Below the pieces are notes generated by a model. The model did not search any database. It saw only the letters and a program-made list of their open reading frames with translations, and was not told the DNA's origin. A stretch of DNA of 64,000 nt, from assembly GCF_012911005.2 (NCBI RefSeq), contig NZ_WTVS01000008.1:1-64000 (forward strand), in the 5' to 3' direction. Of the stretch, positions 21,410-37,963 are shown one piece after another. This stretch comes from Aromatoleum toluolicum. Lineage in GTDB: Bacteria > Pseudomonadota > Gammaproteobacteria > Burkholderiales > Rhodocyclaceae. The position numbers and the translations under genes were made by a program. Position 1 is the stretch's first letter. Every line of letters begins with the position of its first letter.

Positions 21410-23302
21410 ATGACTACGTACAAGGAGTTTCACCGCCGTTCCATCGAAAAGCGTGACGAGTTCTGGGCCGAGCAGGCCGGGCTCATCGACTGGAACAAGC
21501 CCGCAGAGCAGATCTGCGACTTTTCCAATCCGCCGTTCGTGAAGTGGTACAAGGGGGGGGAAACCAACCTTTGCTTCAATGCTGTAGACCGCCACGCCGC
21601 GAAGCGTCCGAACGATCGCGCGCTGGTCTACATTTCAACGGAAACCGACGAAGAGAAGGTCTATTCGTTCGCCGAACTGCAGCGCGAAGTCGAGCGCATG
21701 GCGGCGATCTACCAGGACCTCGGCGTCAAGAAGGGCGATCGCGTCCTGATCTACATGCCGATGATCGCCGAGGCGGCCTTCGCGATGCTCGCGTGCGCGC
21801 GCATCGGCGCGATCCACTCGGTGGTGTTCGGCGGCTTTGCCGCCGGTTCGCTGGCAACCCGCATCGACGACGCCAAGCCGGTGCTGATGGTGAGCTCCGA
21901 CGCCGGCATGCGCAACGGCAAGCCGGTGCCGTACAAGCACCTCGTCGATGAGGCCTGCAAACTGGCCGAGTTCCCGCCGCAGAAGGTCCTGATCGTCGAT
22001 CGTGGCCTGGACAAGGGCTTCCCGAAGGTCGCCGGCCGCGATGTCGACTACGGCGAACTGCGCGCCAAGCACATGGATGCCAAGGTTCCGGTGACCTGGC
22101 TAGAATCGTCCGAGCCGAGCTACATCCTCTACACGTCCGGTACGACCGGCAAGCCGAAGGGCGTGCAGCGTGACACCGGCGGCTACGCCGTGGCGCTGGC
22201 CGCGTCGATGAAGCACATCTTCACCGGCGATGCGGGCGAGACGATGTTCTCGACCTCCGACATCGGCTGGGTCGTCGGCCACAGCTACATCATCTACGGC
22301 CCGCTGCTCGCCGGCATGGCCACGATCATGTACGAAGGCACGCCGCTGCGCCCGGATGCAGGCATCTGGTGGCAGATCGTCGAGAAATACAAGGTCACGG
22401 TGATGTTCTCGGCGCCGACCGCCGTGCGTGTGCTGAAGAAGCAGGATCCGGCCTTCCTCAAGAAGTACGACCTGTCCTCGCTCAAGCACCTGTTCCTCGC
22501 CGGTGAGCCGCTCGACGAGACCACGCACAAGTGGATCATGGACGAACTGGGCATTCCGGTCATCGACAACTACTGGCAGACCGAGACCGGCTGGCCGATG
22601 CTCTCGGCGATCCGCGGCATCGAGAAGACGCCGATCAAGTACGGCTCGCCGAGCTTCCCGGTATATGGCTACGACCTGCGCATTTTCCGTGAAGACGGGA
22701 CCGAGTGCGGGGCCGATGAGAAGGGCATCGTCGGTGTCGTGCCGCCGCTGCCGCCAGGTTGCCTGTCGACCGTGTGGGGGCAGGATGACCGTTTCGTCAG
22801 CACCTACTTCACGTTGTTCAAGGATCCGGTGATCTTCTCGTCGTCCGACTGGGGCATCAAGGACGCCGACGGCTATCACACCATCCTCGGGCGCATGGAC
22901 GACGTGATCAACGTCGCCGGCCATCGTCTCGGCACCCGCGAGATCGAGGAAGCGATCCAGGCCCATTCGGCGATCGCCGAAGTCGCGGTCGTCGGTGTGG
23001 CCGACCAGCTCAAGGGGCAGATGCCGATGGCCTTTGCGGTGGTCAAGGACGCTTCGCGTGTCGATAGTGCCGAGAAGCGTGCCGTGCTCGAGAAGGAGGT
23101 CATGAAGACCGTCGACAACCTCCTCGGTGCGATCGCCCGTCCGGCCCGCGTGCATTTCATCTCCGGTCTGCCGAAGACGCGTTCCGGCAAGATGCTGCGC
23201 CGCTCCATCCAGGCGCTGGCGGAAGGCCGTGATGCCGGCGACCTGACGACGATCGACGATCCGAGCACGCTGGATCAGATCAAGGTCGCGCTGGCTGGTT
23301 GA
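21410..23302 (+). CDS. prpE: Propionate--CoA ligase PrpE
   Basis: A 630-residue AMP-forming acyl-CoA synthetase. The phosphate loop is YILYTSGTTGKPKG, the adenylate-forming core motif is NYWQTETGWP, the hinge region is LGRMDDVINVAGHRL, and the acylation Lys is in TRSGKMLRR. The length and the sequence around YGSPSFPVYGYDLRIF fit PrpE better than acetate ligase Acs. It activates propionate to propionyl-CoA for the methylcitrate or methylmalonyl route; the rest of a prp operon is not present here. The ATG has GGGAGAGGA upstream. A G8 run at 21553-21560 is in frame. Confidence 0.9.
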   Translation: MTTYKEFHRRSIEKRDEFWAEQAGLIDWNKPAEQICDFSNPPFVKWYKGGETNLCFNAVDRHAAKRPNDRALVYISTETDEEKVYSFAELQREVERMAAIYQDLGVKKGDRVLIYMPMIAEAAFAMLACARIGAIHSVVFGGFAAGSLATRIDDAKPVLMVSSDAGMRNGKPVPYKHLVDEACKLAEFPPQKVLIVDRGLDKGFPKVAGRDVDYGELRAKHMDAKVPVTWLESSEPSYILYTSGTTGKPKGVQRDTGGYAVALAASMKHIFTGDAGETMFSTSDIGWVVGHSYIIYGPLLAGMATIMYEGTPLRPDAGIWWQIVEKYKVTVMFSAPTAVRVLKKQDPAFLKKYDLSSLKHLFLAGEPLDETTHKWIMDELGIPVIDNYWQTETGWPMLSAIRGIEKTPIKYGSPSFPVYGYDLRIFREDGTECGADEKGIVGVVPPLPPGCLSTVWGQDDRFVSTYFTLFKDPVIFSSSDWGIKDADGYHTILGRMDDVINVAGHRLGTREIEEAIQAHSAIAEVAVVGVADQLKGQMPMAFAVVKDASRVDSAEKRAVLEKEVMKTVDNLLGAIARPARVHFISGLPKTRSGKMLRRSIQALAEGRDAGDLTTIDDPSTLDQIKVALAG

Positions 23303-23398: not shown

Positions 23399-24277
23399 TC
23401 AGGTGGAGCGTCCCTCTTGGGCCACTCCCTCGTAGGCGGCTTCGATCTCGTCGTGAATCGTTCGCCACATCGGTTTCAGCAGGAAGCGCATGCCCTTGAT
23501 GATGCCTTGAACGTCCATCATCGACGGAATACGGATACCTCGATGTTCGACAGGTCCGCCGATCTGGCGGACATCGACACCCAACTTCGCAAAATGCGAG
23601 GCCAGTCGAGGTTCGGTCAGGATGAAGAGCGTTTCGATTCCGGCGCGCTCGGCAAGTGCGATTGCCCCCAGGTACAGGCCGATGGGAATGTACGGGAAGC
23701 GGGGGTGGACGGTCGTGCCGAAGTCCTCGGCATGGATCGGAGCGTCGGCCAATGACTCGCCGCGTCGGCGCCTATAGCTCGAGCGCACGGCCAGCCGGGA
23801 GACCTCGGCGATCCGCTCGCGGGGCAGCCGGGCCGGGTCAACGATCGAGCGGTCGAGCGTTGCGGCGCAGGTGCGCTCGAAGGGCAGGGGGTAATCCGGA
23901 TCGTCAGTCCTTGTCAGTACTACGCGGGTACACCCGACCGGTCTTACGGGCTCCGAACTCGTGCGCAACAGGCAATGCACGCTGTGCGCATCGTATTCGT
24001 CGGTTTCACGTCGATCTGGGCGTACCGGCTCGAAGCCTAGTTCCTCGCAATACACTTCGTGCCGAATCCGGTACACGGAGTCGCGCAGCGCGTCGTCGGT
24101 TGCCGGATGGATCTCGAAGTACTTCCTGAATCCGTGGCCGAGATTGAATCGGTCGAACAGGAGCAACGCAGTCTCCTTGTCGGGGAGGGTGATGGGTCGG
24201 GCGCCAGGCCTGTAGGGATTCGCTTGTTCAACCCGCCCCGGGGGCCTTCGGTGCAGCGATTCTTCGTGCCTAATCAT
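23399..24277 (-). CDS. PEP-CTERM/exosortase system-associated acyltransferase (N-acyl amino acid synthase-like)
   Basis: A 292-residue GNAT-fold protein of the family TIGR03694 names from its link to exosortase systems. Some relatives in this family join long-chain acyl groups to amino acids (N-acyl amino acid synthases). Family features visible are the YFEIHPATDDALRDSVYRIRHEVYCEELGFE opening (positions about 51-81), VGCTRVVL, and RIAEVSRLAVRSSYRRR, where autoinducer-synthase-like enzymes bind the acyl donor. The ORF opens at 24277; a later start is possible because the first 40 residues are poorly conserved in character. It is divergent from a ThiF/nitroreductase gene pair and close to PEP-CTERM protein genes. 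The product here is not known. Confidence 0.88.
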   Translation of the reverse strand: MIRHEESLHRRPPGRVEQANPYRPGARPITLPDKETALLLFDRFNLGHGFRKYFEIHPATDDALRDSVYRIRHEVYCEELGFEPVRPDRRETDEYDAHSVHCLLRTSSEPVRPVGCTRVVLTRTDDPDYPLPFERTCAATLDRSIVDPARLPRERIAEVSRLAVRSSYRRRRGESLADAPIHAEDFGTTVHPRFPYIPIGLYLGAIALAERAGIETLFILTEPRLASHFAKLGVDVRQIGGPVEHRGIRIPSMMDVQGIIKGMRFLLKPMWRTIHDEIEAAYEGVAQEGRST

Positions 24278-24331
24278 AGTCCATCTTCACGTTTCCCGGT
24301 GTGTACCAAATTCCGCGCGGGAAGACTCAGT

Positions 24332-24344
24332 ACGCAAGTTGCGT
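24332..24344. promoter_or_regulatory. 13-bp palindrome between divergent genes
   Basis: ACGCAAGTTGCGT is a perfect inverted repeat around one central base. It lies in the 125-base gap between the acyltransferase (leftward) and the ThiF-like gene (rightward), about 55 bases from either start. This is where a shared operator would be expected. The binding protein is unknown. Confidence 0.45.
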
Positions 24345-24402
24345 CGCGGTTTCTCTCGCGGGCCGAATTCTCTATGATGGATTCGGGGAGCGATCAGGGG
24401 GT

Positions 24403-25293
24403 ATGGTGAATACATTATTCGATTACGACGCTGCGTTTGCCCGCAACCTCGGTTGGGTGACCGCGGAGGAGCAGGCAGCGCTGCGCGGAAAGCGCATCGC
24501 CATTGCGGGGATGGGGGGCGTTGGTGGCGTGCACTTGCTGACGCTCGCGCGCCTTGGGATCGGTGCCTTCAATATCGCCGATTTCGACACTTTTGATCTT
24601 GTCAATTTCAATCGTCAGGCGGGGGCGATGATGTCTTCGGTTGGGCGCCCCAAGGTGGACGTCCTGGGCGAGATGGCGCTCGACATCAACCCGGAAATCG
24701 CTTTGCATCGCTTCCCAACAGGCCTTTCGGACGCGAACCTCGACGAATTCCTGAAGGATGTCGATCTTTACGTCGACGGCCTCGATTTCTTCTCGTTCGG
24801 CATTCGCCGCGCAACTTTCGCTGCCTGCCACCGCCTCGGTATTCCGGCTGTGACCGCGGCGCCGCTCGGGATGGGAACGGCCGTGCTTGTCTTCCTGCCG
24901 GGGCAGATGAGTTTCGAGGAATATTTCTGTCTCGAAGGCTGCGATGAGGAGGAAATGTCGATCCGCTTTCTACTGGGCTTGTCGCCGGGCATGCTCCAGC
25001 GTTCATATCTTGCGGACCCGACGCGCGTCAATTTACGCGAGCGGCGGGGACCCTCGACGATCATCGCTTGCCAGCTTTGCGCGGGAGTGACGGCGGCCGA
25101 GTCGCTGAAGATTCTTCTGGGCCGGGGCAAGGTGCTCGCTGCACCGTGGGGCTACCAGTTCGACGCGTACCGGAACCGGATGGTCCGCACTTGGCGCCCG
25201 GGTGGCAATCGGAACCCCCTTCAACGCCTGGGGCTGTGGATTGGACGCAGGCAGTTGCGGCGGATGCGCGAGCAGGGGGCGCAGCGTGGCTGA
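24403..25293 (+). CDS. ThiF/MoeB/HesA-family adenylyltransferase (E1-like)
   Basis: A 296-residue E1-like enzyme. The nucleotide loop GMGGVG is at residues 36-41, followed by the acidic DFDTFDLVNFNRQ segment that positions ATP and the conserved Lys in VGRPKVDVL. Two cysteine clusters, CLEGC and CQLC, could bind zinc or carry the acyl-adenylate. Such enzymes adenylate a C-terminal carboxylate, but no ubiquitin-like or ThiS/MoaD carrier gene is nearby. ATG 24403 and GTG 24406 are both possible; AGGGGG is just upstream. It overlaps the nitroreductase gene by 8 bases, so the two are coupled. The pairing recalls the E1-like plus flavin-dehydrogenase pairs of azole-peptide clusters, which is an inference. 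Confidence 0.87.
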   Translation: MVNTLFDYDAAFARNLGWVTAEEQAALRGKRIAIAGMGGVGGVHLLTLARLGIGAFNIADFDTFDLVNFNRQAGAMMSSVGRPKVDVLGEMALDINPEIALHRFPTGLSDANLDEFLKDVDLYVDGLDFFSFGIRRATFAACHRLGIPAVTAAPLGMGTAVLVFLPGQMSFEEYFCLEGCDEEEMSIRFLLGLSPGMLQRSYLADPTRVNLRERRGPSTIIACQLCAGVTAAESLKILLGRGKVLAAPWGYQFDAYRNRMVRTWRPGGNRNPLQRLGLWIGRRQLRRMREQGAQRG

Positions 25294-26362
25294 ACGGGGC
25301 ATCTTGTTCAAGATCCTTGACCTCGCGCGTTGGGCTCCGAGCGGGGACAACACGCAGCCGTGGCGCTTCGAAGTCGTCTCGGGCGACCACATCGTGGTAT
25401 ACGGCTTCGACACGCGCGATTGGTGCCTGTATGACTTCGACGGTCGGCCTAGCTACATGGCACATGGCGCGTTGCTTGAAACTTTACGCATCGCGGCAAC
25501 GGGTTTCGGCCTCGATGCGCGCTGGGCCATTCGTGCCGGATGCACCGCCACGGCGCCGGTCTACGACGTCACAGTGCACGAGGCACCCGGGTTGGCTGCC
25601 GATCCGTTGCTGTCGCACATCGAGACACGAGTTGTCCAGCGCCGCCCGATGCATACCACGCCGCTCAGCGCAGCGCAGCGCGAGCGACTGGTTGCTGCAA
25701 CCGGCCCCGGCTTTCAGGTGCAGTTCTTCGAGTCGTTCGCCGAACGGTTCGAAGTGGCGAAGCTGCTGTGGGGCAGCGCTCACGTCCGCTTGACCTGCCC
25801 GGAAGCTTACGCCGTGCACAAAGAGATCATCGAGTGGGGAGCCCGCTTCAGCAAGGATCGCATCCCCGAGGAGGCCGTCGGCGTCGATCCGATGACGGCA
25901 AGGTTGATGCGATGGGTGATGCAGAGCTGGGCGCGGGTAGAGTTCTTCAATCGCTACCTTTTGGGAACGGTCGCCCCTCGCATCCAGCTCGACTTCATTC
26001 CGGCAATGGCATGTGCGGCCCACGTGTTGCTTCGTCCGCGGAGGCCGCTGACTACGCACGGCGACTGCGTTGAAGCCGGGGTTGCGATGCAGAGGCTCTG
26101 GCTGACCGTTGCGGCGCTCGGCTTGTACCTTCAGCCACAGATGACGCCGGTGATTTTCCGCTGGTATGCCCAAGCGGCTCGCCCGCTATCCGCCAAGCCT
26201 GGAATTGATGACGCGGTGCGGCTGCTTGCCAGCCGCTTCGATGCGCTGACTGGCAGTGGAGCGACGGATCCGTTCGCCTTCTTCTGTCGAGTGGGGAATG
26301 CGAGCCAACCTGTCTCGCGCTCGATCCGGCGGAGCCTCGACGAGCTCATGACGAAGCCGTGA
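25286..26362 (+). CDS. Nitroreductase-fold FMN oxidoreductase
   Basis: A 358-residue protein of the flavin nitroreductase superfamily. The N-terminal ARWAPSGDNTQPWRF segment matches the family's FMN-phosphate-binding stretch; a second block near LWLTVAALGLYLQPQM is the usual dimer/FMN helix. It is much longer than simple nitroreductases (about 200 residues), with extra central sequence. The start is GTG 25286, with AGGGGG upstream, inside the end of the ThiF-like gene, so the two are translated together. It may oxidise a product made with its E1-like partner; the substrate is unknown. Confidence 0.85.
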   Translation: MAERGILFKILDLARWAPSGDNTQPWRFEVVSGDHIVVYGFDTRDWCLYDFDGRPSYMAHGALLETLRIAATGFGLDARWAIRAGCTATAPVYDVTVHEAPGLAADPLLSHIETRVVQRRPMHTTPLSAAQRERLVAATGPGFQVQFFESFAERFEVAKLLWGSAHVRLTCPEAYAVHKEIIEWGARFSKDRIPEEAVGVDPMTARLMRWVMQSWARVEFFNRYLLGTVAPRIQLDFIPAMACAAHVLLRPRRPLTTHGDCVEAGVAMQRLWLTVAALGLYLQPQMTPVIFRWYAQAARPLSAKPGIDDAVRLLASRFDALTGSGATDPFAFFCRVGNASQPVSRSIRRSLDELMTKP

Positions 26363-26476
26363 CTGCGACCGGCAGGATCTCGCCGCTTCCCCCGCAATGT
26401 GCGGGAACGCGACCGGCGCCCTATTCCTGCCCGCGCAACTCGAGCCTGCGGGCTTTCACTCTAGGGGGCATCCTGA

Positions 26477-27133
26477 ATGCGCAAGATCGGAGTGTCGCAA
26501 ATCCTCATCTTTCTGATTCTTGTCGCCGGTGCCGCCGCCGGTGCCGTCCTCGCCACATCGACGCTGGCCGGCAAGCTGCCGCTGGGTGATTTTCGTGGGG
26601 TCGTGCTGTGCGGCATCTTCGTGATCACGTTCTATGTGTTGGCGATTGTCGCGTATCGGCTTTTCCTCTCTGTGATGCCGCTGCGCGAGGGGGACATCGC
26701 ACCGGGGTCGCGCGACGAGTTCACCTACAACGTGTATGTGCTGTTCTTTCTGCTGCTGTTCTATCCGATCACCCGCAACCATGTTCTTCCGGTGCCGCTC
26801 ATGCGTGTCATCTATCTGGCTCTAGGCGCTCGGTTGGGCAAGGATACGTACAGTGCGGGTGTAATCCTCGATCCCATCCTTACCGAGGTCGGCTCGAATA
26901 CGATCATCGGGCACGATGCGGTGCTCTTCTCGCATGCCATGGAAGGGGAGCGCCTGGCTCACGCGAAAATTCGCATCGGCTCCAAGGTTACCGTCGGAGC
27001 GAAGTCGATTGTGATGTCGGGTGTGACCATCGAAGACGGCGCGATCATTGCTGCCGGTTCCGTCGTCACAAAGGGTATCCATGTCCATGCCGGCGAGGTG
27101 TGGGGGGGTAACCCGGCGCGTCGCCTCCGGTGA
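26477..27133 (+). CDS. Membrane-anchored left-handed beta-helix acyltransferase
   Basis: A 218-residue protein with two or three N-terminal membrane segments (about residues 8-30, 40-65 and 86-105), then hexapeptide repeats (GSNTIIGHDAVLF, ARIRIGSKVTVGAKSIVMSGVTIEDGAIIAAG region) ending in the standard GNPAR motif. Such proteins transfer acetyl or other acyl groups from CoA, commonly to sugars. The membrane anchor suggests a lipid or membrane-bound acceptor. It follows the nitroreductase gene by 114 bases on the same strand and precedes the sigma-54 promoter of the PEP-CTERM gene. The acceptor is unknown. Confidence 0.83.
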   Translation: MRKIGVSQILIFLILVAGAAAGAVLATSTLAGKLPLGDFRGVVLCGIFVITFYVLAIVAYRLFLSVMPLREGDIAPGSRDEFTYNVYVLFFLLLFYPITRNHVLPVPLMRVIYLALGARLGKDTYSAGVILDPILTEVGSNTIIGHDAVLFSHAMEGERLAHAKIRIGSKVTVGAKSIVMSGVTIEDGAIIAAGSVVTKGIHVHAGEVWGGNPARRLR

Positions 27134-27277: not shown

Positions 27278-27292
27278 TGGCGTGGAATTTGC
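27278..27292 (+). promoter_or_regulatory. Sigma-54 (-24/-12) promoter of the PEP-CTERM gene
   Basis: TGGCGTG-N4-TTGC matches the RpoN consensus TGGCACG-N4-TTGC in all but one base. The invariant GG (27279-27280) and GC (27291-27292) are 10 bases apart, as required. It lies 69 bases before the PEP-CTERM protein ATG. The sigma-54 activator PrsR encoded at 4963-6321 is the likely driver; this link is inferred from family knowledge. Confidence 0.85.
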
Positions 27293-27361
27293 TCCTATTT
27301 GGGCGTCGGGCGTTGAATCGCCCCTGTGCCGAATCGGCAACCCCTCAAAAGGAGTCTCGCC

Positions 27362-28483
27362 ATGACCAAAAAACTTCCGCACCGCATCCGTTCCAGCGCG
27401 ATTGCGGCAGGCCTTGCCCTGGCTCTGGGGTGGGGGATGCCCGCCTTCGCTGCCGATCCGATCCAGTTCGATGCAGATGGGACCGACGCCAACGCGAACA
27501 CGCAGACCTACGGCTCGTTCGACTGGGCAGTATCGTCCGGCTTGATCGACCAAGGCATTCCCACCACGGGTTCGTCATTCAATCTGTATACCCACGCGGT
27601 GCTGGACGGCTTCACTGACACGGGTGGTGACTCCGTCCCCGATCCGGCGAACATGAATGGGACGTGGGAGATCACCGCGATCGCGGGCTTCGCGGAAACT
27701 GCGACGCTTGCGGGAGCGCCGACGATCGTTCAGGTCAGCGACGGCGGAACGCCTCTTGATCAAACCGATGACGTCTACCAGTTCACGAGCACGATCAACC
27801 TGAACCTGGATACGACCGGCACCACGAACTTCTTCGCCGTCTATTACGACGATGTGATTGGCGACGGGACGAAGGCCAGCTCGCTCACCGGTCTCGGCTT
27901 CGACGACGGAACGCTGATCCTGTCAGGGACCGTTTCGCAGTTCACGAGCGCCGGCACCTTCACGTCGAACTGGTTCTTCGTCGATACAAACGGCAACGGG
28001 CTCTACGACGCAGGTGAGGAAGCTGCGATCGATCCCGCCACCGGCGATCCGGTCAACGCCGGCCGCCTGCTCGACCAGAGCGCGAACGGTGACGATTGGG
28101 CAGGGCAACTGACCGCCTACGGTGAAGGTTCGACCTCGATCGAAGTGGATGTCACGTTCCAGGATTCCAACTTCTTCAAGTCGCTGATCACCGCGCTTTC
28201 GCAGGATCTGTTCTTCACGACCCGCAACAACCTCCCCGTCGATGACACGAACCCGTCGAAGTCCTTCGACACTGACCTCGGTGGTGGCGCGCTGACTCTG
28301 GCAGGTGGTGGGATCAGTCTGGGCACGATCAACTGCGTCAATGGTCCGGATTGCATTCTCGAAACCGACGCGAGCAACTCGTTCCAGACCACCGTGCCCG
28401 AGCCGTCGAGCCTCGCGCTGCTGGGCCTGACGCTCGTGATGCTCGGCATCGGCCGTGTGTCGTCGCGGAGAAGGACCGTATGA
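27362..28483 (+). CDS. PEP-CTERM sorting-signal surface protein
   Basis: A 373-residue exported protein. Signal peptide residues 1-30 end in MPAFA-A. The body is rich in Asp, Thr and Gly. The C-terminus has the complete exosortase signal: VPEP, a hydrophobic stretch LALLGLTLVMLGIG, and basic RVSSRRR. Exosortase should cleave near the PEP motif and release or anchor the protein, which usually is glycosylated and lies in an extracellular matrix. ATG 27362 has AAAAGGAG upstream. A sigma-54 promoter precedes it. Its first 340 residues are clearly related to the next gene's product. No enzyme motif is seen, so it is likely structural. Confidence 0.92.
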   Translation: MTKKLPHRIRSSAIAAGLALALGWGMPAFAADPIQFDADGTDANANTQTYGSFDWAVSSGLIDQGIPTTGSSFNLYTHAVLDGFTDTGGDSVPDPANMNGTWEITAIAGFAETATLAGAPTIVQVSDGGTPLDQTDDVYQFTSTINLNLDTTGTTNFFAVYYDDVIGDGTKASSLTGLGFDDGTLILSGTVSQFTSAGTFTSNWFFVDTNGNGLYDAGEEAAIDPATGDPVNAGRLLDQSANGDDWAGQLTAYGEGSTSIEVDVTFQDSNFFKSLITALSQDLFFTTRNNLPVDDTNPSKSFDTDLGGGALTLAGGGISLGTINCVNGPDCILETDASNSFQTTVPEPSSLALLGLTLVMLGIGRVSSRRRTV

Positions 28484-28604: not shown

Positions 28605-30329
28605 ATGAAACTTCAAAGGATCTTGGGTTCTGGCGCGATCGCGCTGGTTCCTCTGTTCGTAGCGATGGGCGATGCGGGGGCCGCAAGCCTAATCCTTTTC
28701 GACCCGGACGGTGATGGATCGAATCAGCCACAAACGGTGAGTGCCTTCGACTGGGGCAACGGGAATGCCTTGGTTACCGCGCCTGCCGGCGGAGCTCCTG
28801 CGATTCCGCTTGGTGTAGCCAATACGAAGTCCGTCCAGACCTATGTTCACGGAGCCCTTAGCGGCCTGCTGAATCCCGGTGGTGATCCCTATCCGGATCC
28901 GACCGGCTTCAATTCGACGTTTGAACTGACCTATATCGCGGGCTCGGGCGAGACGGTGACGACCAATGCGAGCGGTTCGGTAGCGACCTTCGCATTCGAC
29001 GGAACTTCCCAGAGCAACTTCTTTTATCTGTACTACGACGATCTGACTGACGGTTCGGGTAGCAAGGGCGCGTCGCTAAGCGGCCTCGGCTATGGCGACG
29101 GAAGGCAGATTCTGCGCGGCGTAGTGGTCGAGATCGTCGGCAACTTCGGAGTCGATGGCTCGGTAGGCCTGCTCGACCAGTTCGGTACCGACAACTGGGC
29201 TGGTACGCAGACGGTGAGGGGGCAGGGGTCGCAAAGCATCGCAGTGATGGTGCAGTTCGCAGATCCCGAATTTTTCAAGAGCGGGGTTGAGCCAGGCACG
29301 ATACTGAATTTTACGACCCAGCAAAACGTACCGTATCTGGAAACCAATCCTTCGCAGAATTTCGAGACGGATTCGGGCGTCGATGCCGCAGTAGTTGGCG
29401 CGATCAACGGTGCGTCCGGGCCTGAGATGCTGCTTCAGACCGATGCGAGCAACAACTTCGCATTCATTCCGACGGCTCAGGCATGTCGGGTGACCGGCGG
29501 TGGGAACGATACTTCCGGGATCAACGTAGCCGAAGGTGGATGGGACGGAACCTTTGCTGTCGACTCCCTGAAGCCGTCGGTGCTGTTGAAGCCGAAAGGC
29601 AAGGCCGCCAAGTCGAGCACCGTGACCAATTACTATGACTATTCATTCGGCGGGCAGGCGGGTGCGAATACGGCCTTGCCACCGCAGCCGAAAGGCCAAT
29701 GGGAGCACAACAACCACAGCAGCCCGAGTGGTCTGAGCTTCGCGTTCCATGGTGGACGGAACGCTCCGGCGGGCACACAGATCGATGAGATCCGTTGTAC
29801 CGATGAGGGGTGGTGCGAACAGGCACGCCCGGCGCCGAACAAGCAGATCGACTTCGTTGGCGTGGGTACCTTCAGCAATATCAGCAACAACACCTTCACC
29901 GCGAGCGACGGAGTGATTTTCGACGGGATCGATGAGGTTATCCCCGAGCCGAAGGGGCAACGCCCGAATCAAGCGGTGCCGACTTATCACTGGTTCCAGG
30001 TGCACATCGAGGATCTGGGGGAGGGGGGTAGCGAGAACCCGAACACGCCGGTTCCTGGGGCAAACTGCCCGCCGGCCGGATCCGGTAACAACCCGTTCGC
30101 GGATCCGCCGGTGACCGACAACATTGCCGACTGCGGTTGCGCAGACTTCTACCGGATCACCATCTACAAGGGCGTGCAACCCGCAGTGGATGCCGACGGG
30201 AAGGTCATCCTCGACGCCAATGGCGATGTGCCGGGACTCAACAAGACCGACAAGATCTACGAGGTATATGGCTACATCGATGGTGGCAACTTCCAGATCC
30301 ACCCGCTGACCGGCTTTGACCTGAAGTAA
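28605..30329 (+). CDS. Secreted paralogue of the PEP-CTERM protein with a different Cys-containing C-terminal domain
   Basis: A 574-residue exported protein. The signal peptide ends at about residue 34 (GDAGA-A). Residues 35-290 match the preceding PEP-CTERM protein in order: the FDWGNGNAL opening, the YTHA/YVHGAL segment, the YYDD-SLxGLGxxDG block and LQTDASNNF. Exactly where the neighbour continues into VPEPSS, this protein instead runs into ACRVTGGGNDTSG and a 280-residue domain with six cysteines, including IRCTDEGWCEQ and DCGCADFYRI. There is no PEP motif, C-terminal hydrophobic helix or basic tail, so exosortase should not process it. The new domain resembles VTGGG-type extracellular modules I cannot name with confidence. 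It probably is co-expressed with the upstream gene. Confidence 0.85.
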   Translation: MKLQRILGSGAIALVPLFVAMGDAGAASLILFDPDGDGSNQPQTVSAFDWGNGNALVTAPAGGAPAIPLGVANTKSVQTYVHGALSGLLNPGGDPYPDPTGFNSTFELTYIAGSGETVTTNASGSVATFAFDGTSQSNFFYLYYDDLTDGSGSKGASLSGLGYGDGRQILRGVVVEIVGNFGVDGSVGLLDQFGTDNWAGTQTVRGQGSQSIAVMVQFADPEFFKSGVEPGTILNFTTQQNVPYLETNPSQNFETDSGVDAAVVGAINGASGPEMLLQTDASNNFAFIPTAQACRVTGGGNDTSGINVAEGGWDGTFAVDSLKPSVLLKPKGKAAKSSTVTNYYDYSFGGQAGANTALPPQPKGQWEHNNHSSPSGLSFAFHGGRNAPAGTQIDEIRCTDEGWCEQARPAPNKQIDFVGVGTFSNISNNTFTASDGVIFDGIDEVIPEPKGQRPNQAVPTYHWFQVHIEDLGEGGSENPNTPVPGANCPPAGSGNNPFADPPVTDNIADCGCADFYRITIYKGVQPAVDADGKVILDANGDVPGLNKTDKIYEVYGYIDGGNFQIHPLTGFDLK

Positions 30330-30425: not shown

Positions 30426-31649
30426 TCAGCTTGTGGGCAGGATTCGCCCGGCGATCAATCGTTCGAGGTGAGGTGCAAGGTCGGATCGTCGAGGATCACT
30501 TGCCGCGGCCTCGCGCAGGCGATGCGCGCAAGCGGCGAAGCTCGGGTCTCCAAGGAGCCTCGTTACTGCCTGCCGCAGGACGGCAGCGGTTGCGCGATCC
30601 GAGCGAACGAGAAGACCGGCGCCAAAGCGCTCGATGGCCTGCATGTTCAGAAACTGGTCCATGTTTCGGGCGATCCCCAGCACGGGAACGCCGGCCGTCA
30701 GGGCCTGGTTGGTGGTCGGACTGCCGCCGTTGCAGACGACGAGGTTCGCATGCTCGCACACCAATTGACCGGGAAGGTAGTCGAAGACCCGGGTTCGTGG
30801 CGATGTGAATTGTGTCGGCAGGGATTTTCCCGCAGAGGCCAACAGTACGCGTGCGCCGGTCGCTTCGAGTAAGGGCACCAGATCCCGCAGCACGCGTGGA
30901 TCGCCCGAACTGCCCATGGTGACGTAAACCAGGGGAGTGTCCGTGCCGTCCTCTAATGACACAGCGGCAGCAGCGTCGGGCGACCATGCAATTGGGCCGA
31001 TAAATCTTGCCGTGGCACTTTCTCGGACTTCCGGAAACAACTCGGAAAAGTTGGCGAACAGTCGCAGATCGGCATCCGTGTAACTTCGCCGAAGATCGTG
31101 GCCCAGGGGTGGGAGTCGGTGACGCGCCCGTAGCACCTCCATCGGCCGCGCGTGCATTTTCAGTGCAAGCGGAGAAATCCTCCGAAATATGGCGTTCGCG
31201 ATCGAGAGCGGTGCAAAACGCGTTATGGCAAGAACGGGCATGGGCGTCTGCAGGGGACGCTCGGGGCTCCAGTAGGCGTCGCAGATCGTCGCATAGGGAA
31301 CACCGCGCGAGCGCGCGCTGACCGACAGCGAAAGGCGAAAATCGCCCACGACGACGTCAGGCCGTTCGGTATCGATAAGGGCGTGGTCCGCCTCGACATA
31401 ACGGGAAAGCGTATCGATGTCATACAGGGGAAAGCCATGCTCCAGCCGGCGGGAAAAGACCGACGTTGCCTGGCACTCTAGCGGAACGACCTTGAATGGC
31501 GCTCCGTCAGTCAACCAACCGAACGCCGCCGGTCTAGCGAATACGACGTCGAATCGTTGTGGGTCGAGTCCGGACGCCAGAACAAACGGCCGGGCGACAT
31601 GTGCGAGCGTCGCACCTTCGGCGAAGAAGAGAATTTTCGCTTTGACCAT
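30426..31649 (-). CDS. GT1-like (MGT/UGT superfamily) glycosyltransferase
   Basis: A 407-residue GT-B glycosyltransferase. The N-terminal domain opens with KAKILFFAEGATLAHVARP. The C-terminal donor domain has LVYVTMGSSGD and the family's sugar-nucleotide motif as VVCNGGSPTTNQALTAGVPVLGI, in which the usual His before GG is replaced by Asn. It should transfer a sugar to a lipid or small molecule rather than build a long polymer. It follows the lytic transglycosylase gene by 57 bases on the same strand. Given the nearby acyltransferase cassette, the acceptor might be a lipid made there; this is speculation. Confidence 0.85.
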   Translation of the reverse strand: MVKAKILFFAEGATLAHVARPFVLASGLDPQRFDVVFARPAAFGWLTDGAPFKVVPLECQATSVFSRRLEHGFPLYDIDTLSRYVEADHALIDTERPDVVVGDFRLSLSVSARSRGVPYATICDAYWSPERPLQTPMPVLAITRFAPLSIANAIFRRISPLALKMHARPMEVLRARHRLPPLGHDLRRSYTDADLRLFANFSELFPEVRESATARFIGPIAWSPDAAAAVSLEDGTDTPLVYVTMGSSGDPRVLRDLVPLLEATGARVLLASAGKSLPTQFTSPRTRVFDYLPGQLVCEHANLVVCNGGSPTTNQALTAGVPVLGIARNMDQFLNMQAIERFGAGLLVRSDRATAAVLRQAVTRLLGDPSFAACAHRLREAAASDPRRSDLAPHLERLIAGRILPTS

Positions 31650-32680: not shown

Positions 32681-33856
32681 ATGCGTTATCGTGTCAGGGC
32701 GCTCGGGGCGAACGCATCGGTCGTCGAAACCGAGCTTGAGGCCGGGTGCGAGGCGGATGTCCGTGCGCTGGCCGAGGCGCGGGGCTTGTCCGTACTTTCG
32801 CTCAAGGCGCTGGAGCGTGGCCGAGGTCGCAGTCGATTTCCGCTGCTCCTGTTCAACCAGCAACTGCTGGCGCTGTTGCGCGCGGGCATTCCGCTTACCG
32901 AGGCAATCTCGGCGCTCGCCGAGAAGGAGCGGTGGCCGGCGATCAGGTCGGTGATGCAGGGGCTGCGTGATGCATTGCGTGAAGGACGCAGCCTGTCGAG
33001 TGCGCTGGAGTCGGCGCCGCAGGCTTTTCCGACCCTGTATGTCGCGCTGATTCGTGCGGCCGAGCGCACCAGCGATCTCGAGCGGGCCATTGCGCGCTAC
33101 ATCGCATACCAGCAGGATGGCGAGCGCCTGCGCGACAAGCTGATCAGTGCGGCTATTTACCCCCTGTTGCTGGTTGGTGTGGGTGGCCTGGTGGTGCTGT
33201 TCCTGCTCGGCTACGTCGTGCCGCGTTTCTCGCACATATACCAGAACGTGGGCACCAACCTGCCGTGGATGTCACGCCTGCTGCTGGAGTGGGGGCAGTT
33301 CGTCGAGGGGCACGCCGTGTTGCTCGGGGTGATCGTGGTGGCAATTTTGGGGGCAGGGGTTGTGGTGGTACGCAGCCCCGTGTTGTGGGCGACGGTCGGG
33401 CGCTACATGTGGCGGATGCCGTTCGTTGGTGAGCGCATGCGGGTGTTTCAGCTCGCACGGTTCTACCGGACCGTGGGCATGCTGCTTTCGGGAGGTATCC
33501 CGGTCGTGACCGCTCTGGGGATGGTGTCGGGGCTGCTTTCGCCGTCGCTGCAGGCGAGTCTCGCTGCTGCCATATCGGCGATACGTGAGGGGCGCAGTTT
33601 TTCGTCGATGCTGGCGGCGCGCGGCCTGACGACCCCCGTCGCGCTGCGCATGCTGGAGGTCGGCGAACATGCCGGGAATCTGGGCGAAATGCTGACACGC
33701 GCGGCGGAATTTCACGAAGAGGATACCGCGAGGCAGGTAGAGTGGTTCACGCGCCTGTTCGGCCCGTTGCTGATGCTGCTGATCGGTTGTGCGATCGGGC
33801 TGATCGTCGTGCTCATGTACATTCCGATATTCATGCTTGCAGAGAGCATTCGATGA
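32681..33856 (+). CDS. gspF: Type II secretion inner-membrane platform protein GspF
   Basis: A 391-residue GspF/PilC-type protein. Two copies of the T2SSF domain are visible, the first from about 62 (LLFNQQLLALLRAGIPLTEAI) and the second from about 262 (LARFYRTVGMLLSGGIPVVTAL). Membrane helices lie near 168-190, 213-232 and 362-385. It forms the membrane platform that the ATPase works on. It heads a ten-gene run in which nearly every start overlaps the previous stop; here ATGA is shared with gspE. Confidence 0.92.
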   Translation: MRYRVRALGANASVVETELEAGCEADVRALAEARGLSVLSLKALERGRGRSRFPLLLFNQQLLALLRAGIPLTEAISALAEKERWPAIRSVMQGLRDALREGRSLSSALESAPQAFPTLYVALIRAAERTSDLERAIARYIAYQQDGERLRDKLISAAIYPLLLVGVGGLVVLFLLGYVVPRFSHIYQNVGTNLPWMSRLLLEWGQFVEGHAVLLGVIVVAILGAGVVVVRSPVLWATVGRYMWRMPFVGERMRVFQLARFYRTVGMLLSGGIPVVTALGMVSGLLSPSLQASLAAAISAIREGRSFSSMLAARGLTTPVALRMLEVGEHAGNLGEMLTRAAEFHEEDTARQVEWFTRLFGPLLMLLIGCAIGLIVVLMYIPIFMLAESIR

Positions 33857-35535
33857 GCGAATCGTTGACTGCGGAACTCGCTCCCGCTCCCCCGCCCCCT
33901 TTTTCCGCGGCAGAACTGTCAGCCGCGGCGGCGGGTGGCGAGCGCGCCATTGACGGGCTCGCGAAGCTTGAGCCGAATCCCGCACTGCGCGTGGAGCGCC
34001 TGGCGTCCGCGCTCGGGCTGACGTCCATCGGGCACGGGCGTCTGATGGCTCTCGAGCCGGATTTCACCGCGATTCCGTTCGAGATGGCGCTGCGCCGGGA
34101 GTGCGTCGCGCTGCGTGGCGAGGACGGCGCGCTGCTCGTGGTGATTGCAGATCCTTTCGACTCCGACCTGCTGGATGGCCTGGGAGCTCGCCTCCGCGAG
34201 CCATACGAGCTGTTATTGGCGGACCATGACGATTTGGCGGCTTGCCTGGCGCGGCACGAGGACGAGGTCCGCCGCGCGGCCGGACTGATCGAGTCGCGCG
34301 AGGAGGGCGGCGAGGGCGACGGTGTCGAGGATCTGTCGCTCAAGCGCATCAGCGCCGACGCGAGTCCGGTCGTCAAGCTGGTCAATTCGACCCTCTATGA
34401 CGGCCTGAAGCAGCTTGCGAGCGATATCCACCTCGAGTCGGTCCCTGGCGGGCTGGTGATCAAGTACCGCCTCGACGGCGTGCTGGTGCGTGTCGGCAGT
34501 GCGCAGGGCAACGAGCTTGCGGAGCAGGTCATCTCCCGTATCAAGGTGATGGCGGAGCTCGACATTGCCGAGCGCCGGGTGCCGCAGGACGGGCGTTTCA
34601 AGGTCCGTTCGGGCGGGCGCGAGATCGACTTCCGCGTCTCGATCATGCCCAGCATCCACGGCGAGGATGCCGTGTTGCGCATCCTCGACAAGGAGCACCT
34701 CAGCCGCGAGATGAGCGGGCTGACGCTGGAGACGCTGGGTTTTGACGACGAGACACGGGGCGCGCTGCGCCACCTCGCGACCGAGCCCTATGGCATGCTG
34801 CTCGTCACCGGGCCGACCGGTTCGGGCAAGACGACCACGCTGTACGCCACGCTTGCCGAGACTAACCAGGGGCTCGACAAGATCGTCACGATCGAGGATC
34901 CGGTCGAGTACCAGCTCACGGGCGTGCTGCAGATCCCGGTGAACGAGAAGAAGGGCCTGACCTTCGCGCGCGGCCTCAGATCCATCCTGCGCCATGACCC
35001 GGACAAGATCATGGTCGGCGAGATCCGCGACGGTGAAACGGCGGAAATCGCGGTGCAGGCGGCACTCACCGGCCACCTTGTGTTTACCACCGTGCACGCC
35101 AACAACGTCTTCGACGTCATGGGGCGATTCATGCACATGGGGATCGATCCGTTCAATCTCGTCGCCGCGCTCAACGGCATCGTCGCCCAGCGCCTGCTGC
35201 GCATCAATTGTCCCTACTGCACCGAGGACGTGCCGCCCGACGCACAGCTGATCACGCGCTCGCGCATCGGCGATGCGAGCAGTTTCCGCTTCCGTGCGGG
35301 ACATGGCTGCGGTCAGTGCCGCGGGACGGGATTCCGCGGTCGGCGCGCGGTCGCCGAAGTGCTGTTGCTCGACGACGAGATCCGCGAGCTGATCGTCGCC
35401 CGCGCTCCGATCCGGACGGTCAAGGAAGCGGCCCGGCGCAACGGATTCCGCGGTCTGCGCGACGCGGCGCTCGCGGTGGCGGCTTCCGGGGAAACCACGC
35501 TGCAGGAGGTGAATCGTGTCACGCTTCTCGGCTGA
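33853..35535 (+). CDS. gspE: Type II secretion ATPase GspE
   Basis: A 560-residue secretion ATPase. After an N-terminal GspE/PilB-type domain (about 45-140), the core has Walker A GPTGSGKTT, an Asp box region, and Walker B IMVGEIRDGETAE with a His box GHLVFTTVHANN. A zinc-type tetracysteine set CPYC...CGQC follows, as in GspE and PilB. It powers pseudopilus assembly from the cytoplasm. ATG 33853 shares ATGA with the gspF stop; an in-frame extension to 33742 lies inside gspF and is not needed. Confidence 0.94.
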   Translation: MSESLTAELAPAPPPPFSAAELSAAAAGGERAIDGLAKLEPNPALRVERLASALGLTSIGHGRLMALEPDFTAIPFEMALRRECVALRGEDGALLVVIADPFDSDLLDGLGARLREPYELLLADHDDLAACLARHEDEVRRAAGLIESREEGGEGDGVEDLSLKRISADASPVVKLVNSTLYDGLKQLASDIHLESVPGGLVIKYRLDGVLVRVGSAQGNELAEQVISRIKVMAELDIAERRVPQDGRFKVRSGGREIDFRVSIMPSIHGEDAVLRILDKEHLSREMSGLTLETLGFDDETRGALRHLATEPYGMLLVTGPTGSGKTTTLYATLAETNQGLDKIVTIEDPVEYQLTGVLQIPVNEKKGLTFARGLRSILRHDPDKIMVGEIRDGETAEIAVQAALTGHLVFTTVHANNVFDVMGRFMHMGIDPFNLVAALNGIVAQRLLRINCPYCTEDVPPDAQLITRSRIGDASSFRFRAGHGCGQCRGTGFRGRRAVAEVLLLDDEIRELIVARAPIRTVKEAARRNGFRGLRDAALAVAASGETTLQEVNRVTLLG

Positions 35536-36244
35536 GGTCCGCCGCCTGCTGATCGAGCAGGATGCGATCCGCGTCGGGCACGGCACGACGCAGAAGCGCC
35601 TGGCCTACGAGTGGGCGCCTGATGCCGCCCTGGCGGCGCTGGCCGCGGCACCCGATGGCGGGGTGCAGCGCGGGTCGCGCTGGGACGTACTGTTCGCCGA
35701 TGCGGTGGTGCGCTATCTGATCATCCAGTGGCCGTCCGGCCTGCGCGGCGGACCCGAGCGCGAGGCCTTCGTTGCGCTCCGTTTCAGGGAGGTGCACGGG
35801 GTCGGGGCGCCCGAGTGGCGCATCGTCGTCGAGCGCGGCGCCACGGATTTTCCCGTCATCGCCTGCGCCGTGCCTGCCGCGCACGTCGAGGCGGTGGCCG
35901 CGTGGGGAAGGGCGCACCGGCTGCGCTTTGGTAGTGTCACGGGCGAGTTCCTCGCCGCATATAACCGTGTGCGTCACGAACTGGAGAACCCGTTCGGCGC
36001 GTTGGCGGTGCAGCGTGACGGGCGGGTCACGCTGGGATTCTGGCGCGACGCGCAGTGGCAGTCCTTGCGCAGCCAGCCGCTTGGACCGGCCGGAGATACG
36101 TCGCTGGGCCTGTACCTGGAATCGCAGGCGCTGCGCTCGGCGACTCAGGCCGAAGCCGGCGTCCTGTATTGCATCGGGGAGGGGCCGCGGGTTCCTGCCG
36201 GATGGCGCAAGGTCGCGCTGCATGCCGAAGGGTGGGAAGGATGA
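35516..36244 (+). CDS. Secretion-locus protein of unknown function
   Basis: A 242-residue protein with a GTG start inside the last 20 bases of gspE. It has no signal peptide and no clear membrane helix. I do not recognise a domain. Its position, directly before a PilN-like gene, is where GspL's cytoplasmic half or PilM is found in canonical systems, and a split GspL (cytoplasmic part here, membrane part in the next gene) is one possible reading. The sequence has no visible actin-like ATP-binding motif, so this is tentative. It is real judging from the overlaps on both sides and normal codon usage. Confidence 0.75.
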   Translation: MSRFSAEVRRLLIEQDAIRVGHGTTQKRLAYEWAPDAALAALAAAPDGGVQRGSRWDVLFADAVVRYLIIQWPSGLRGGPEREAFVALRFREVHGVGAPEWRIVVERGATDFPVIACAVPAAHVEAVAAWGRAHRLRFGSVTGEFLAAYNRVRHELENPFGALAVQRDGRVTLGFWRDAQWQSLRSQPLGPAGDTSLGLYLESQALRSATQAEAGVLYCIGEGPRVPAGWRKVALHAEGWEG

Positions 36245-36783
36245 GACGGGTTCCCTTGCCGGTCGATCTCGATTTTCTGCAAACCCGCCGACGCGTGAGC
36301 GTCGCGGGGTGGGGACTGCTCGCAGCCGGTCTGCTTGCCTGCGGACTTCAGTTTGCCGAATTCCGCCGTGCAAGTGACGAGATCGATGCGCGCGAGGCGG
36401 CCGTGGCGCGTACGCGCGAAGCGGCGCGGCGCGCACTGCCCGAGGCTGCGGCGGAAAGGAACCCGGTGGGCGCCGAGGAAGCGAAGGCCGCGCTCGGCGT
36501 TGCCGCACGCCTGAACGCCGACTGGGGGGCAATGCTCGGCGGTGTGGCGGGGGCCCAAGGCGAGGGCGTGACGTGGCTGAACCTGCAGGCCGATCAGGCG
36601 CGGGGCACGCTCGCGGTGGCGGGGCAGGCCCGCTCGCTGGCGGAGATGTTCGAGTTCGTGGCCCGGCTCGGGGCCGTGCAGGGGATACATGAGGCGCAAT
36701 TGGCGAATTACGAATGGGTGCGTGTCGACGCCGGGAATGCGGTGCAATTCACCGTGAACGCTAAATGGAGCGGACGTCCGTGA
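36241..36783 (+). CDS. PilN/GspL-C-like inner-membrane assembly protein
   Basis: A 180-residue protein with a short cytoplasmic N-terminus, one membrane helix (VAGWGLLAAGLLACGLQF), a coiled-coil stretch and a ferredoxin-like periplasmic domain that ends in a beta-strand pattern. This is the PilN or GspL C-terminal layout. It shares ATGA with the previous stop. It should pair with the next protein in the inner-membrane alignment complex. Confidence 0.78.
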   Translation: MRRVPLPVDLDFLQTRRRVSVAGWGLLAAGLLACGLQFAEFRRASDEIDAREAAVARTREAARRALPEAAAERNPVGAEEAKAALGVAARLNADWGAMLGGVAGAQGEGVTWLNLQADQARGTLAVAGQARSLAEMFEFVARLGAVQGIHEAQLANYEWVRVDAGNAVQFTVNAKWSGRP

Positions 36784-37454
36784 TGCCCGGCGCTGGTATG
36801 TTCGTGCGCTACTGGAGCCCCTGTTTCCTCGCGGCGATCGCGCCTGCGACCGGCGGTGGTGAGGTTGCGGGGGGCGCCGCGCCGCAGGGGAGCCTGTTAC
36901 GTAGTGGCGGGCCGTCGTTCCGGATGGTCAGGGAGTATGTCGGGCGCCTCGCGCTGAATGCGGGACTTCCCGGTGCACTGGGCGTCGTCCTGGTGGCGGC
37001 CGCTGTGCTGGGGGGCTACGTCGCACGCGCGGACAATGATCGCCGCGCCGCCGAGCTTGCGCAGGAGCAGGGCCGGATCGAGCGTAGCGCAAACGCGCCG
37101 GCTCCGGGGGAAGACGGGCGCACCCGCGTGATGGATTTTTTCGCGCGTTTCCCGCCGGTAAGCGCGTTGCCCGACAGCCTGCGGCGCCTGAACGAACACG
37201 CCGCGGCCCATGATATTGGCGTGCAGCGTGCCGACTACCGCAGTACCGCCGTGACCGGCACGCCGCTGACGCTGGTCAGCCTCACGATTCCCGTGCAGGC
37301 TGAGGCCGAGGCGCTCTACGTCTGGCTCGGCGCGCTGCTGCGCGAAATGCCCGAGATCGCCTTGGAGTCGGTGAGTCTCAAGCGCGAGACGAGCGATGCG
37401 GAGACGGTGGAGGCGGATATCCGCCTGCAACTCTATCTGCGGGGGCGCTCATGA
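36783..37454 (+). CDS. PilO/GspM-like inner-membrane assembly protein
   Basis: A 223-residue protein. A membrane helix (GALGVVLVAAAVLGGYVA) at about 65-82 is followed by a coiled coil and a periplasmic domain similar in plan to PilO/GspM. ATG 36783 overlaps the previous TGA (TGATG). The N-terminal 55 residues before the helix are longer than usual and Gly/Ala rich. The partner is the PilN-like protein encoded upstream. Confidence 0.76.
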   Translation: MPGAGMFVRYWSPCFLAAIAPATGGGEVAGGAAPQGSLLRSGGPSFRMVREYVGRLALNAGLPGALGVVLVAAAVLGGYVARADNDRRAAELAQEQGRIERSANAPAPGEDGRTRVMDFFARFPPVSALPDSLRRLNEHAAAHDIGVQRADYRSTAVTGTPLTLVSLTIPVQAEAEALYVWLGALLREMPEIALESVSLKRETSDAETVEADIRLQLYLRGRS

Positions 37455-37963
37455 CAATGCGCCACGTTCTCCTGGCTGCCACCCTGTTGGCAACGCTGGT
37501 TGCGAGCTGGTGGGCGGTCAATGAAGACTCGGGTGACGTCGTCGTGGTGCAGCCCGTCGAGCGGGCCGCCCGGGCTCCGGTCGCCGCCAGATCGCGGGCA
37601 TCGGCCGATTCGCCGTCATCAGCCGGAGGGAGCCTGACCAGACTCGATGAGGATCGGGCGCCGTGGCCCGAACTTTCCGAGCCGCTGGCGCGCATCGTCA
37701 GTTTCGCGCCGCCTCCGCCGCGGGCCGCAGCGTTGGTCCCCGTCGAGCCGCAGGCGCCGCCGCTGCCGTTCCGCTATGTCGGTGCTATCGACGACGCGCA
37801 GGGCAAGGCCGTGTTTCTGCTCGAGGGCGCGCAGGTCCGCCTGGCGCGCCCCGGAGAGGAAATCGCAGGCCGTTACCGTGTCGAGCGCATTACCCCCTCC
37901 GCAGTCGAATTCACTTATCTGCCGCTCAAGAAAATGCAGACTCTCAATCGCCAGAATCCATGA
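37451..37963 (+). CDS. PilP/GspC-like secretion coupling protein
   Basis: A 170-residue protein with an N-terminal membrane helix (HVLLAATLLATLVASWWAV), a Pro/Ala-rich periplasmic linker (about 35-105) and a small beta-rich domain (FRYVGAIDDAQGKAVFLLEG...). The domain resembles the homology region of GspC/PilP that binds the secretin's N0 domain. It is coupled by ATGA overlaps to the genes on both sides, the next being the secretin. Confidence 0.78.
   Translation: MTMRHVLLAATLLATLVASWWAVNEDSGDVVVVQPVERAARAPVAARSRASADSPSSAGGSLTRLDEDRAPWPELSEPLARIVSFAPPPPRAAALVPVEPQAPPLPFRYVGAIDDAQGKAVFLLEGAQVRLARPGEEIAGRYRVERITPSAVEFTYLPLKKMQTLNRQNP

Follow-up and report, generated by a model that had tools for sequence, protein, structure and literature searches.

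A predicted N-acyl amino acid lipid pathway with a candidate glycosyltransferase in Aromatoleum toluolicum and other exosortase A bacteria

Genes and features of the locus

A 64,000-nucleotide stretch of the Aromatoleum toluolicum genome (NCBI RefSeq assembly GCF_012911005.2, contig NZ_WTVS01000008.1, positions 1 to 64,000; here called the window) carries four enzyme genes between the end of prpE at 23302 and the start (ATG) of a PEP-CTERM gene at 27362, which an earlier note on this DNA had read as one small-molecule pathway. We consider it fairly probable that these genes, together with a glycosyltransferase (GT) gene farther along, make a tailored N-acyl amino acid lipid. The four open reading frames are all present, and profile searches confirmed their family membership: an N-acyl amino acid synthase of the TIGR03694 PEP-CTERM/exosortase-associated family (23399..24166, minus strand); a ThiF/E1-like protein, predicted to be an ATP-dependent N-acyl amino acid cyclase (24403 or 24406..25293, plus strand); a nitroreductase-superfamily flavin-dependent oxidase (FDO), predicted to be a desaturase (25286..26362, plus strand); and a membrane-anchored hexapeptide acyltransferase of the left-handed beta-helix type (HEX; 26477..27133, plus strand). 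As the note had stated, the ThiF and FDO genes overlap by 8 bases (25286-25293), the FDO start lying inside the ThiF gene. The proposed additional tailoring enzyme, a GT1-type (EryCIII/MGT-like) GT (30426..31649, minus strand), lies beyond the four genes that the note had described.

The synthase scored 259.8 bits against TIGR03694 (cut-off, 111.95) and 30 bits against the FeeM family PF21926 (cut-off, 27). Residue E158, in an EVSR motif, was invariant in 17 aligned sequences and aligned with the glutamate of FeeM-type synthases, if only weakly (hhalign probability 10.9, E 0.0028); the role of this glutamate in N-acyl amino acid synthases is treated in PMC4897644. With an AlphaFold model of the synthase, the best Foldseek match was the acyl-homoserine lactone (AHL) synthase BjaI (5w8g, E 6.2e-9), FeeM (2g0b) followed at E 1.1e-6, and the closest structures were the AHL synthases BjaI, RpaI, TofI, and LasI. 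Together with the reported structural similarity of N-acyl oxazolones to AHLs (PMC12856293), this closeness could mean that the synthase product is a diffusible AHL-type signal modified by ThiF and FDO. We regard that as improbable, as AHL synthase family models scored far below cut-off (18.9 of 292 and 16.4 of 250).

The synthase start in the earlier note, 24277, is probably wrong. Several features of the sequence and model make TTG 24166 the more probable start: 5 of 16 aligned relatives have no start codon before about residue 38, the position of this TTG; AAGGAG stands ahead of it; model confidence is below 50 across nearly all of residues 1-43; and position 24277 falls inside a conserved element, AATCATAGTCCA (24272-24283), that is identical in the nine genus loci aligned (the window and eight others). 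This element lies in an apparent divergent promoter region (24167..24402, assigned to no strand) that also holds TATGAT -10-like hexamers in opposite directions (24273-24278, minus strand; 24373-24378, plus strand). The forward hexamer is lost in two loci (L044 and L045), and a strict sigma-70 scan returned no match.

Conservation of the ThiF protein was assessed in 81 loci, namely, the window and 80 named loci that were the best 80 of at least 493 relatives in at least 594 stretches from a ThiF-alignment search and that therefore lean to close relatives. The protein matches the ThiF/MoeB fold, scoring 139.7 bits against Pfam ThiF (cut-off, 28.1) and 476.7 bits against PRK08223 (NF006077; cut-off, 266). 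The residues of its GGVGG glycine loop were conserved in 80-81 of the 81 loci and R70, K83, and D127 in all of them, with D127, the adenylation aspartate, lying within the stretch aligned to DCTDN of Escherichia coli ThiF. The fold, together with ten ThiS-family matches (including a borderline one) on other contigs of the genome, would be compatible with genuine E1 activity, the adenylation of a ubiquitin-like or sulfur-carrier protein whose gene lies in another part of the genome. We find this very unlikely and rejected it: the protein fell below the cut-offs of the ThiF, MoeB, and UbaA models (84.2 of 275.25, 82.3 of 266, and 60.5 of 450); a profile search of the genome found no ThiS/MoaD-family match on the window's contig, in line with the earlier note's remark that no such carrier is nearby; two of the three cysteines checked (C175 and C179) are variable, with C225 conserved in 79 of 81 loci; and the gene is coupled or fused to FDO and stands near a synthase.

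The FDO scored 39.8 bits against the Pfam nitroreductase model (cut-off, 23.5), and the best solved relative of its family alignment was Acg (2ymv). R119, R168, and Q269 were invariant in all 61 FDO domains with scores of 300 bits or more; more distant FDOs (220-274 bits) occur in some loci. E1-like proteins with nitroreductase-fold partners also occur in azole/thiazole peptide modification (TOMM-like) systems. Such a system is rejected here as the least likely of the alternatives, given that the genome's single YcaO match lies on another contig (C223) and that the partner is an acyl-amino-acid synthase.

The GT scored 73.4 bits against an EryCIII-like C-terminal domain (cut-off, 31.7) and stayed below the cut-off of the full macrolide glycosyltransferase family TIGR01426 (68.1 of 260 bits). 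H17 and D103 were invariant in 12 of 12 aligned GTs, and a His/Asp pair of this kind is catalytic in GT1 enzymes. HEX scored 40.6 bits against Hexapep (cut-off, 27); its model (pLDDT 92) begins with long helices at the N terminus and continues in short strands, and Foldseek matched it to maltose/galactoside O-acetyltransferases.

Gene order in related loci

The gene arrangement recurs in Beta- and Gammaproteobacteria. The nearest named relatives among the matches listed are Aromatoleum evansii and A. tolulyticum (ThiF identity of 92% for both), and another genome in the genus reaches 98.6% identity. Within the genus, ThiF scored above cut-off in 11 of the 17 genomes searched, the window's included, and the acyltransferase adjoins ThiF in 9 of these 11 loci. 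Across the 81 loci, FDO is fused to ThiF in 9 and lies within 60 bp of it in 58, L110 with its opposite-strand FDO included. When the ThiF proteins were clustered at 85% identity, FDO was fused in 7 and adjacent in 37 of the 54 representatives. ThiF stands near a synthase with no FDO detected in the locus in L071, L072, and L073 (Zoogloea), L068 (Nitrosospira), L103, and L134; FDO-less loci might yield a cyclized but saturated product.

The remaining enzymes follow a directional pattern. Of the 54 loci that span 16 kb or more, 34 carry a synthase (of whichever type), 27 carry GT, and 13 carry HEX. GT lay downstream of ThiF in 29 of the 56 loci that had 8 kb of downstream sequence and upstream in none of the 60 that had 8 kb of upstream sequence, and 14 of the 15 HEX-bearing loci among the former also carried GT (the exception is L061). 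For the 36 clustered representatives with 8 kb downstream, GT followed ThiF in 16 and HEX in 8. We also fetched the gene rows from 10 of the 11 genomes (described below) in which GT and ThiF lie no more than 10 kb apart, leaving out only the window's. In 6 of these 10 loci (L137-L142), synthase, ThiF, FDO, and GT form a single row in one direction, with ThiF and FDO fused in five and gaps of 0-89 bp apart from one of 214 bp. No other observation argues as strongly for GT as a member of the pathway as these six codirectional rows do. Elsewhere, L144 has synthase, ThiF, and FDO together with GT 6-7 kb off, and L143 has GT, HEX, and a PEP-CTERM gene together, away from ThiF.

Other genes were noted beside some of the loci. 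LolCE-like permease genes lie between synthase and ThiF in L059 (8678-9919), L060, and L070 and are absent from this place in the window; the LolCE-like permease gene cluster, annotated from one member, occurs in 31 of 99 loci. LolA-like, DUF1302-like, and ABC-ATPase-like proteins (the last recognized by eye from the first residues) are encoded near other relatives, and a lipid export route formed by such neighbors is possible.

Co-occurrence with exosortase A

Co-occurrence was examined in a sample of 200 genomes of the order to which A. toluolicum belongs, the window's included, with thresholds that we set ourselves (E <= 1e-50 for ThiF and GT, 1e-35 for HEX, 1e-20 for exosortase and TIGR03694, and 1e-12 for FeeM). 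Exosortases were called exosortase A (XrtA)-like when they matched the general exosortase model at E <= 1e-60; the TIGR03109 check was applied to the exosortase of the window's genome only, which passed it (343.3 bits; cut-off, 208). At most 9 GT and 15 HEX first-look candidates were scored per genome, so that absences of GT and HEX are less certain than absences of ThiF. The P values are from Fisher tests, which ignore relatedness, and related genomes are not independent.

ThiF was present in 35 of the 200 genomes and exosortase in 73, of which 50 were XrtA-like and 23 other. XrtA-like exosortases occurred in 33 of the 35 ThiF genomes versus 17 of the 165 without ThiF (p = 8e-23). Seen from the other side, ThiF was found in 33 of the 50 XrtA-like genomes and in none of the 23 having only other exosortases. 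These counts bear out the exosortase link suspected in the earlier note and show it to be specific for genomes of the XrtA-like kind. In addition, the synthase (of either type, in 48 genomes) was present in every ThiF genome and lay within 10 kb of ThiF in 32 of the 35. The earlier note had named separation of the acyltransferase from the ThiF/nitroreductase pair, in either direction, as evidence against one pathway; separation was found in one direction only, with synthase lacking ThiF in 13 of 48 genomes and ThiF lacking synthase in 0 of 35. ThiF accompanied the FeeM-type synthase in 32 of 37 genomes and TIGR03694 in 13 of 26, and the synthase within 10 kb of ThiF was FeeM-type in 28 genomes and TIGR03694 in 6, making the window's synthase type the less usual partner of ThiF in the sample.

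GT occurred in 14 genomes, 13 of them with ThiF (p = 2e-10) and 11 with ThiF within 10 kb. HEX occurred in 8 genomes, 7 with ThiF (p = 2e-5), 7 with GT, and 5 with ThiF within 10 kb. HEX, which the earlier note had placed in the pathway, accompanies it only occasionally, and GT (30426-31649) is the better-supported fourth enzyme. The resulting nesting, in which synthase is the widest set, followed by ThiF/FDO, GT, and HEX, is the pattern expected from ordered tailoring.

The same counts bear on a shorter pathway, in which synthase, ThiF, and FDO alone would make an undecorated N-acyl dehydro-amino acid or an oxazolone, while GT and HEX would serve neighboring exopolysaccharide or PEP-CTERM glycan machinery. 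GT was not found in 22 of the 35 ThiF genomes; the window's GT is 5.2 kb from ThiF, on the opposite strand and past the PEP-CTERM gene and its relative; HEX-like enzymes acetylate sugars generally; XrtA polysaccharide genes stand near a number of loci (gene clusters of 17-18 of 99 loci); and within the 50 XrtA-like genomes the GT-ThiF link stands at p = 0.018 and the HEX-ThiF link is not significant (p = 0.24). Against this stand the six short-gap codirectional rows, the presence of ThiF in nearly every GT genome and mostly close by, and the association of GT1/MGT-type enzymes with acceptors that are small and hydrophobic, not with polysaccharide chains. On balance, we regard the three-enzyme pathway as possible but rather doubtful and a pathway that includes GT as the better reading.

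Proposed pathway, surface context, and known relatives

From the presence, conservation, co-occurrence, and order of the genes, all of which were observed directly, we infer the following reactions. The synthase would N-acylate an amino acid with a fatty acyl group, the known function of its family, and the amino acid is by analogy probably aromatic. The ThiF-like enzyme would then activate the carboxylate with ATP and close the ring to an oxazolone, and the nitroreductase-type FDO would desaturate the 2,3-bond with O2; both steps are modeled on homologous trios, and their order may vary. As the gene rows and co-occurrence suggest, the GT1-type GT may next glycosylate a hydroxyl group on the product; the simplest candidate is the phenol group of a (dehydro)tyrosine. 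More tentatively, the membrane-bound HEX might O-acylate, probably acetylate, the sugar or the lipid. The product would be used at the surface of exosortase A bacteria.

Several observations, besides those already set out for GT and HEX, weigh against this pathway. The acyltransferase was not found in two of the genus ThiF loci (L035 and L036). Among the 81 ThiF loci, FDO was not detected in 12 (2 of which have less than 0.5 kb of sequence left), lies 1-2 kb from ThiF in 2, and is on the opposite strand from ThiF in L110. In L145 and L146, the row consists of synthase, FDO, and GT; ThiF and another FDO lie at a different place in the locus. ThiF is missing from one of the GT genomes (G098) and from one of the HEX genomes (G074). 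The fused Rv1355c (TrzS) family NF005901 was not matched at its cut-off of 476 bits by either ThiF (60.9 bits) or FDO (103 bits), and no product is known for any GT-bearing cluster. Furthermore, it is not certain that the window's synthase feeds ThiF, since two further FeeM-type synthases are encoded elsewhere in the genome.

Side observations on these enzymes may be added. Each of L145 and L146 has one FDO adjoining a lower-scoring ThiF and the other between synthase and GT. Assignment of the window's proteins to the fused Rv1355c family was rejected, the NF005901 cut-off being missed and ThiF and FDO being separate genes. The two additional synthases of the window's genome lie on other contigs (C38 = L136; C267 = L135), and one of them is about 15 kb from exosortase A. 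A 28-bit acyltransferase-like match on another contig, for which comparison was limited to its surroundings, led to nothing.

Downstream of the enzymes, the PEP-CTERM gene (27362..28483, plus strand) encodes a weakly PepA-like protein that scored below the cut-off of floc_PepA NF033554 (57.1 of 80 bits). Among nine PEP-CTERM proteins scanned from other loci, five exceeded the PepA cut-off (one barely, at 80.6 of 80), two exceeded that of EDSAP-1, and two exceeded neither. The placement of the gene is recurrent, as 34 of 73 loci have a PEP-CTERM open reading frame within the first 1.5 kb past the enzymes, versus 21 of 563 other 1.5-kb bins. A sigma-54 (-24/-12) type site, TGGCGTGGAATTTGCT (27278..27293, plus strand), stands ahead of the window's gene. 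The sigma-54 consensus and weights, like the PEP-CTERM regular expression, are home-made patterns; the window scan gave 2 matches versus 0.93 expected, and the cross-locus scan picked another, upstream match at the window's PEP-CTERM gene. Across loci, such sites preceded 45 of 62 PEP-CTERM genes (4.5 expected), compared with 0 of 72 ThiF (5.2), 4 of 67 FDO (4.8), 2 of 17 HEX (1.2), 1 of 31 GT (2.3), 7 of 43 synthase (3.1), and 1 of 15 prpE genes (1.1). Because the sites are frequent at PEP-CTERM genes and absent from ThiF genes, the surface protein is probably controlled separately from the enzymes, and a single coregulated unit that includes it was rejected. We thus picture a PEP-CTERM gene with its own putative sigma-54-type promoter following the enzymes in about half of the loci.

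This arrangement invites the idea that a glycosylated, acylated N-acyl (dehydro)amino acid, or its reactive oxazolone, serves in these lineages as the missing lipid acceptor to which exosortase A attaches PEP-CTERM proteins, or as a covalent modifier of such proteins. The confinement of ThiF, among exosortase carriers of the sample, to XrtA-like genomes is consistent with such a role, as is the preferred place of the PEP-CTERM gene. Of the 50 XrtA-like genomes, 17 lack ThiF and 7 lack any synthase, so that such a lipid could not act as a general XrtA acceptor, and we hold the idea to be highly improbable.

Past the PEP-CTERM gene, a neighbor (28605..30329, plus strand) encodes a protein of 574 residues with no family or PEP-CTERM match, the first part of which is related to the preceding PEP-CTERM protein (cross-matches of about 34-36% identity); relatives of it adjoin the cluster in several genus loci. 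Beyond GT, GspF-, GspE-, and secretin-like genes of the type II secretion or type IV pilus kind occupy 32681-40377, all scoring below curated cut-offs. An Rfam scan led to nothing.

The chemistry of the proposed pathway is not new. In Mycobacterium tuberculosis, TyzA, TyzC, and TyzB N-acylate tyrosine, desaturate it with O2, and cyclize it with ATP to an acyl-oxazolone, the products being acyl-tyrazolones (PMC10404671), and TrzA with the fused TrzS carries out the corresponding steps on tryptophan to give tryptazolones (PMC12856293). OxzAB of Pseudoalteromonas rubra is described as an acyltransferase and a fused ThiF-FDO (PMC10404671, PMC12856293). Producers of stieleriacines, kyonggic acids, and thalassotalic acids carry a NasY-ThiF-nitroreductase trio, whose genes overlap or are separated by short gaps in two of these producers, whereas the candidate clusters of a Massilia making only saturated forms contain neither ThiF nor nitroreductase (PMC12479983). 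The pathway of the earlier note is therefore essentially a known one: a single small-molecule pathway, an E1-like protein acting on a small molecule, and an acylated, oxidized amino acid as product all agree with these reports and with the presence of synthase in every ThiF genome. The published ThiF step departs from the adenylation that the note had proposed, being an ATP-dependent cyclization of the N-acyl amino acid. Of further weight against the scheme as drawn, no oxazolone was observed in the stieleriacine, kyonggic acid, and thalassotalic acid producers despite their ThiF (PMC12479983), and the ring may therefore be transient.

The A. toluolicum locus resembles each of these systems in part. 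As in tyzABC, an N-acyltransferase gene on the opposite strand adjoins a ThiF-FDO pair (PMC10404671); the Tyz system belongs to another phylum, and the main text of that paper has no mention of glycosyl, PEP-CTERM, or exosortase (hexapeptide was not looked for). A fused ThiF-FDO, as in OxzAB and TrzAS, is also found among the relatives here, in contrast to the separate genes of the window, and PMC12856293 makes no mention of glycosyltransferase, PEP-CTERM, exosortase, or hexapeptide. The NasY clusters share the identical three enzymes and the short gaps or overlaps, a Massilia being among them; the tailoring proposed there is C- or O-methylation, and PMC12479983 does not mention glycosyl, PEP-CTERM, exosortase, or hexapeptide. 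Glycosylated forms or a link to GT were not found in the literature searched, as far as its available text goes (PMC12479983, PMC12856293, PMC10404671, and PMC13190842 included; most subscription journals lay outside its coverage).

The synthase side of the exosortase link is likewise already in print: PMC4897644 and PMC7293339 both cite Craig, Cherry and Brady (2011, J Bacteriol 193:5707) for it. A connection of stieleriacine genes with PEP-CTERM and exopolysaccharide genes has also been reported (PMC7293339). In both that work and ours, the synthase adjoins PEP-CTERM genes in exosortase carriers. As cited, the 2011 link is one of the synthase, to which the present data add ties of ThiF and GT to XrtA-like genomes and a preferred place of the PEP-CTERM gene past the enzymes. 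PepA of Aquincola tertiaricarbonis, the product of a sigma-54-dependent PEP-CTERM protein gene, is involved in floc formation (PMC9850573). It offers a parallel in the promoter type and in the five PEP-CTERM proteins that passed the PepA cut-off and differs in that PMC9850573 does not mention ThiF or nitroreductase and the window's protein falls below that cut-off.

In sum, the locus most likely combines a known core with a new, exosortase-A-associated branch that would bring glycosylation and perhaps O-acylation. The nested gene set and the near-restriction of ThiF to XrtA-like genomes in the sample predict a concrete family of sugar-bearing lipids, for which single-gene deletions would give distinct mass shifts. 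Since some loci carry genes of the PepA family, which is tied to flocs (PMC9850573), floc-forming bacteria would provide a practical ground on which to test this prediction.

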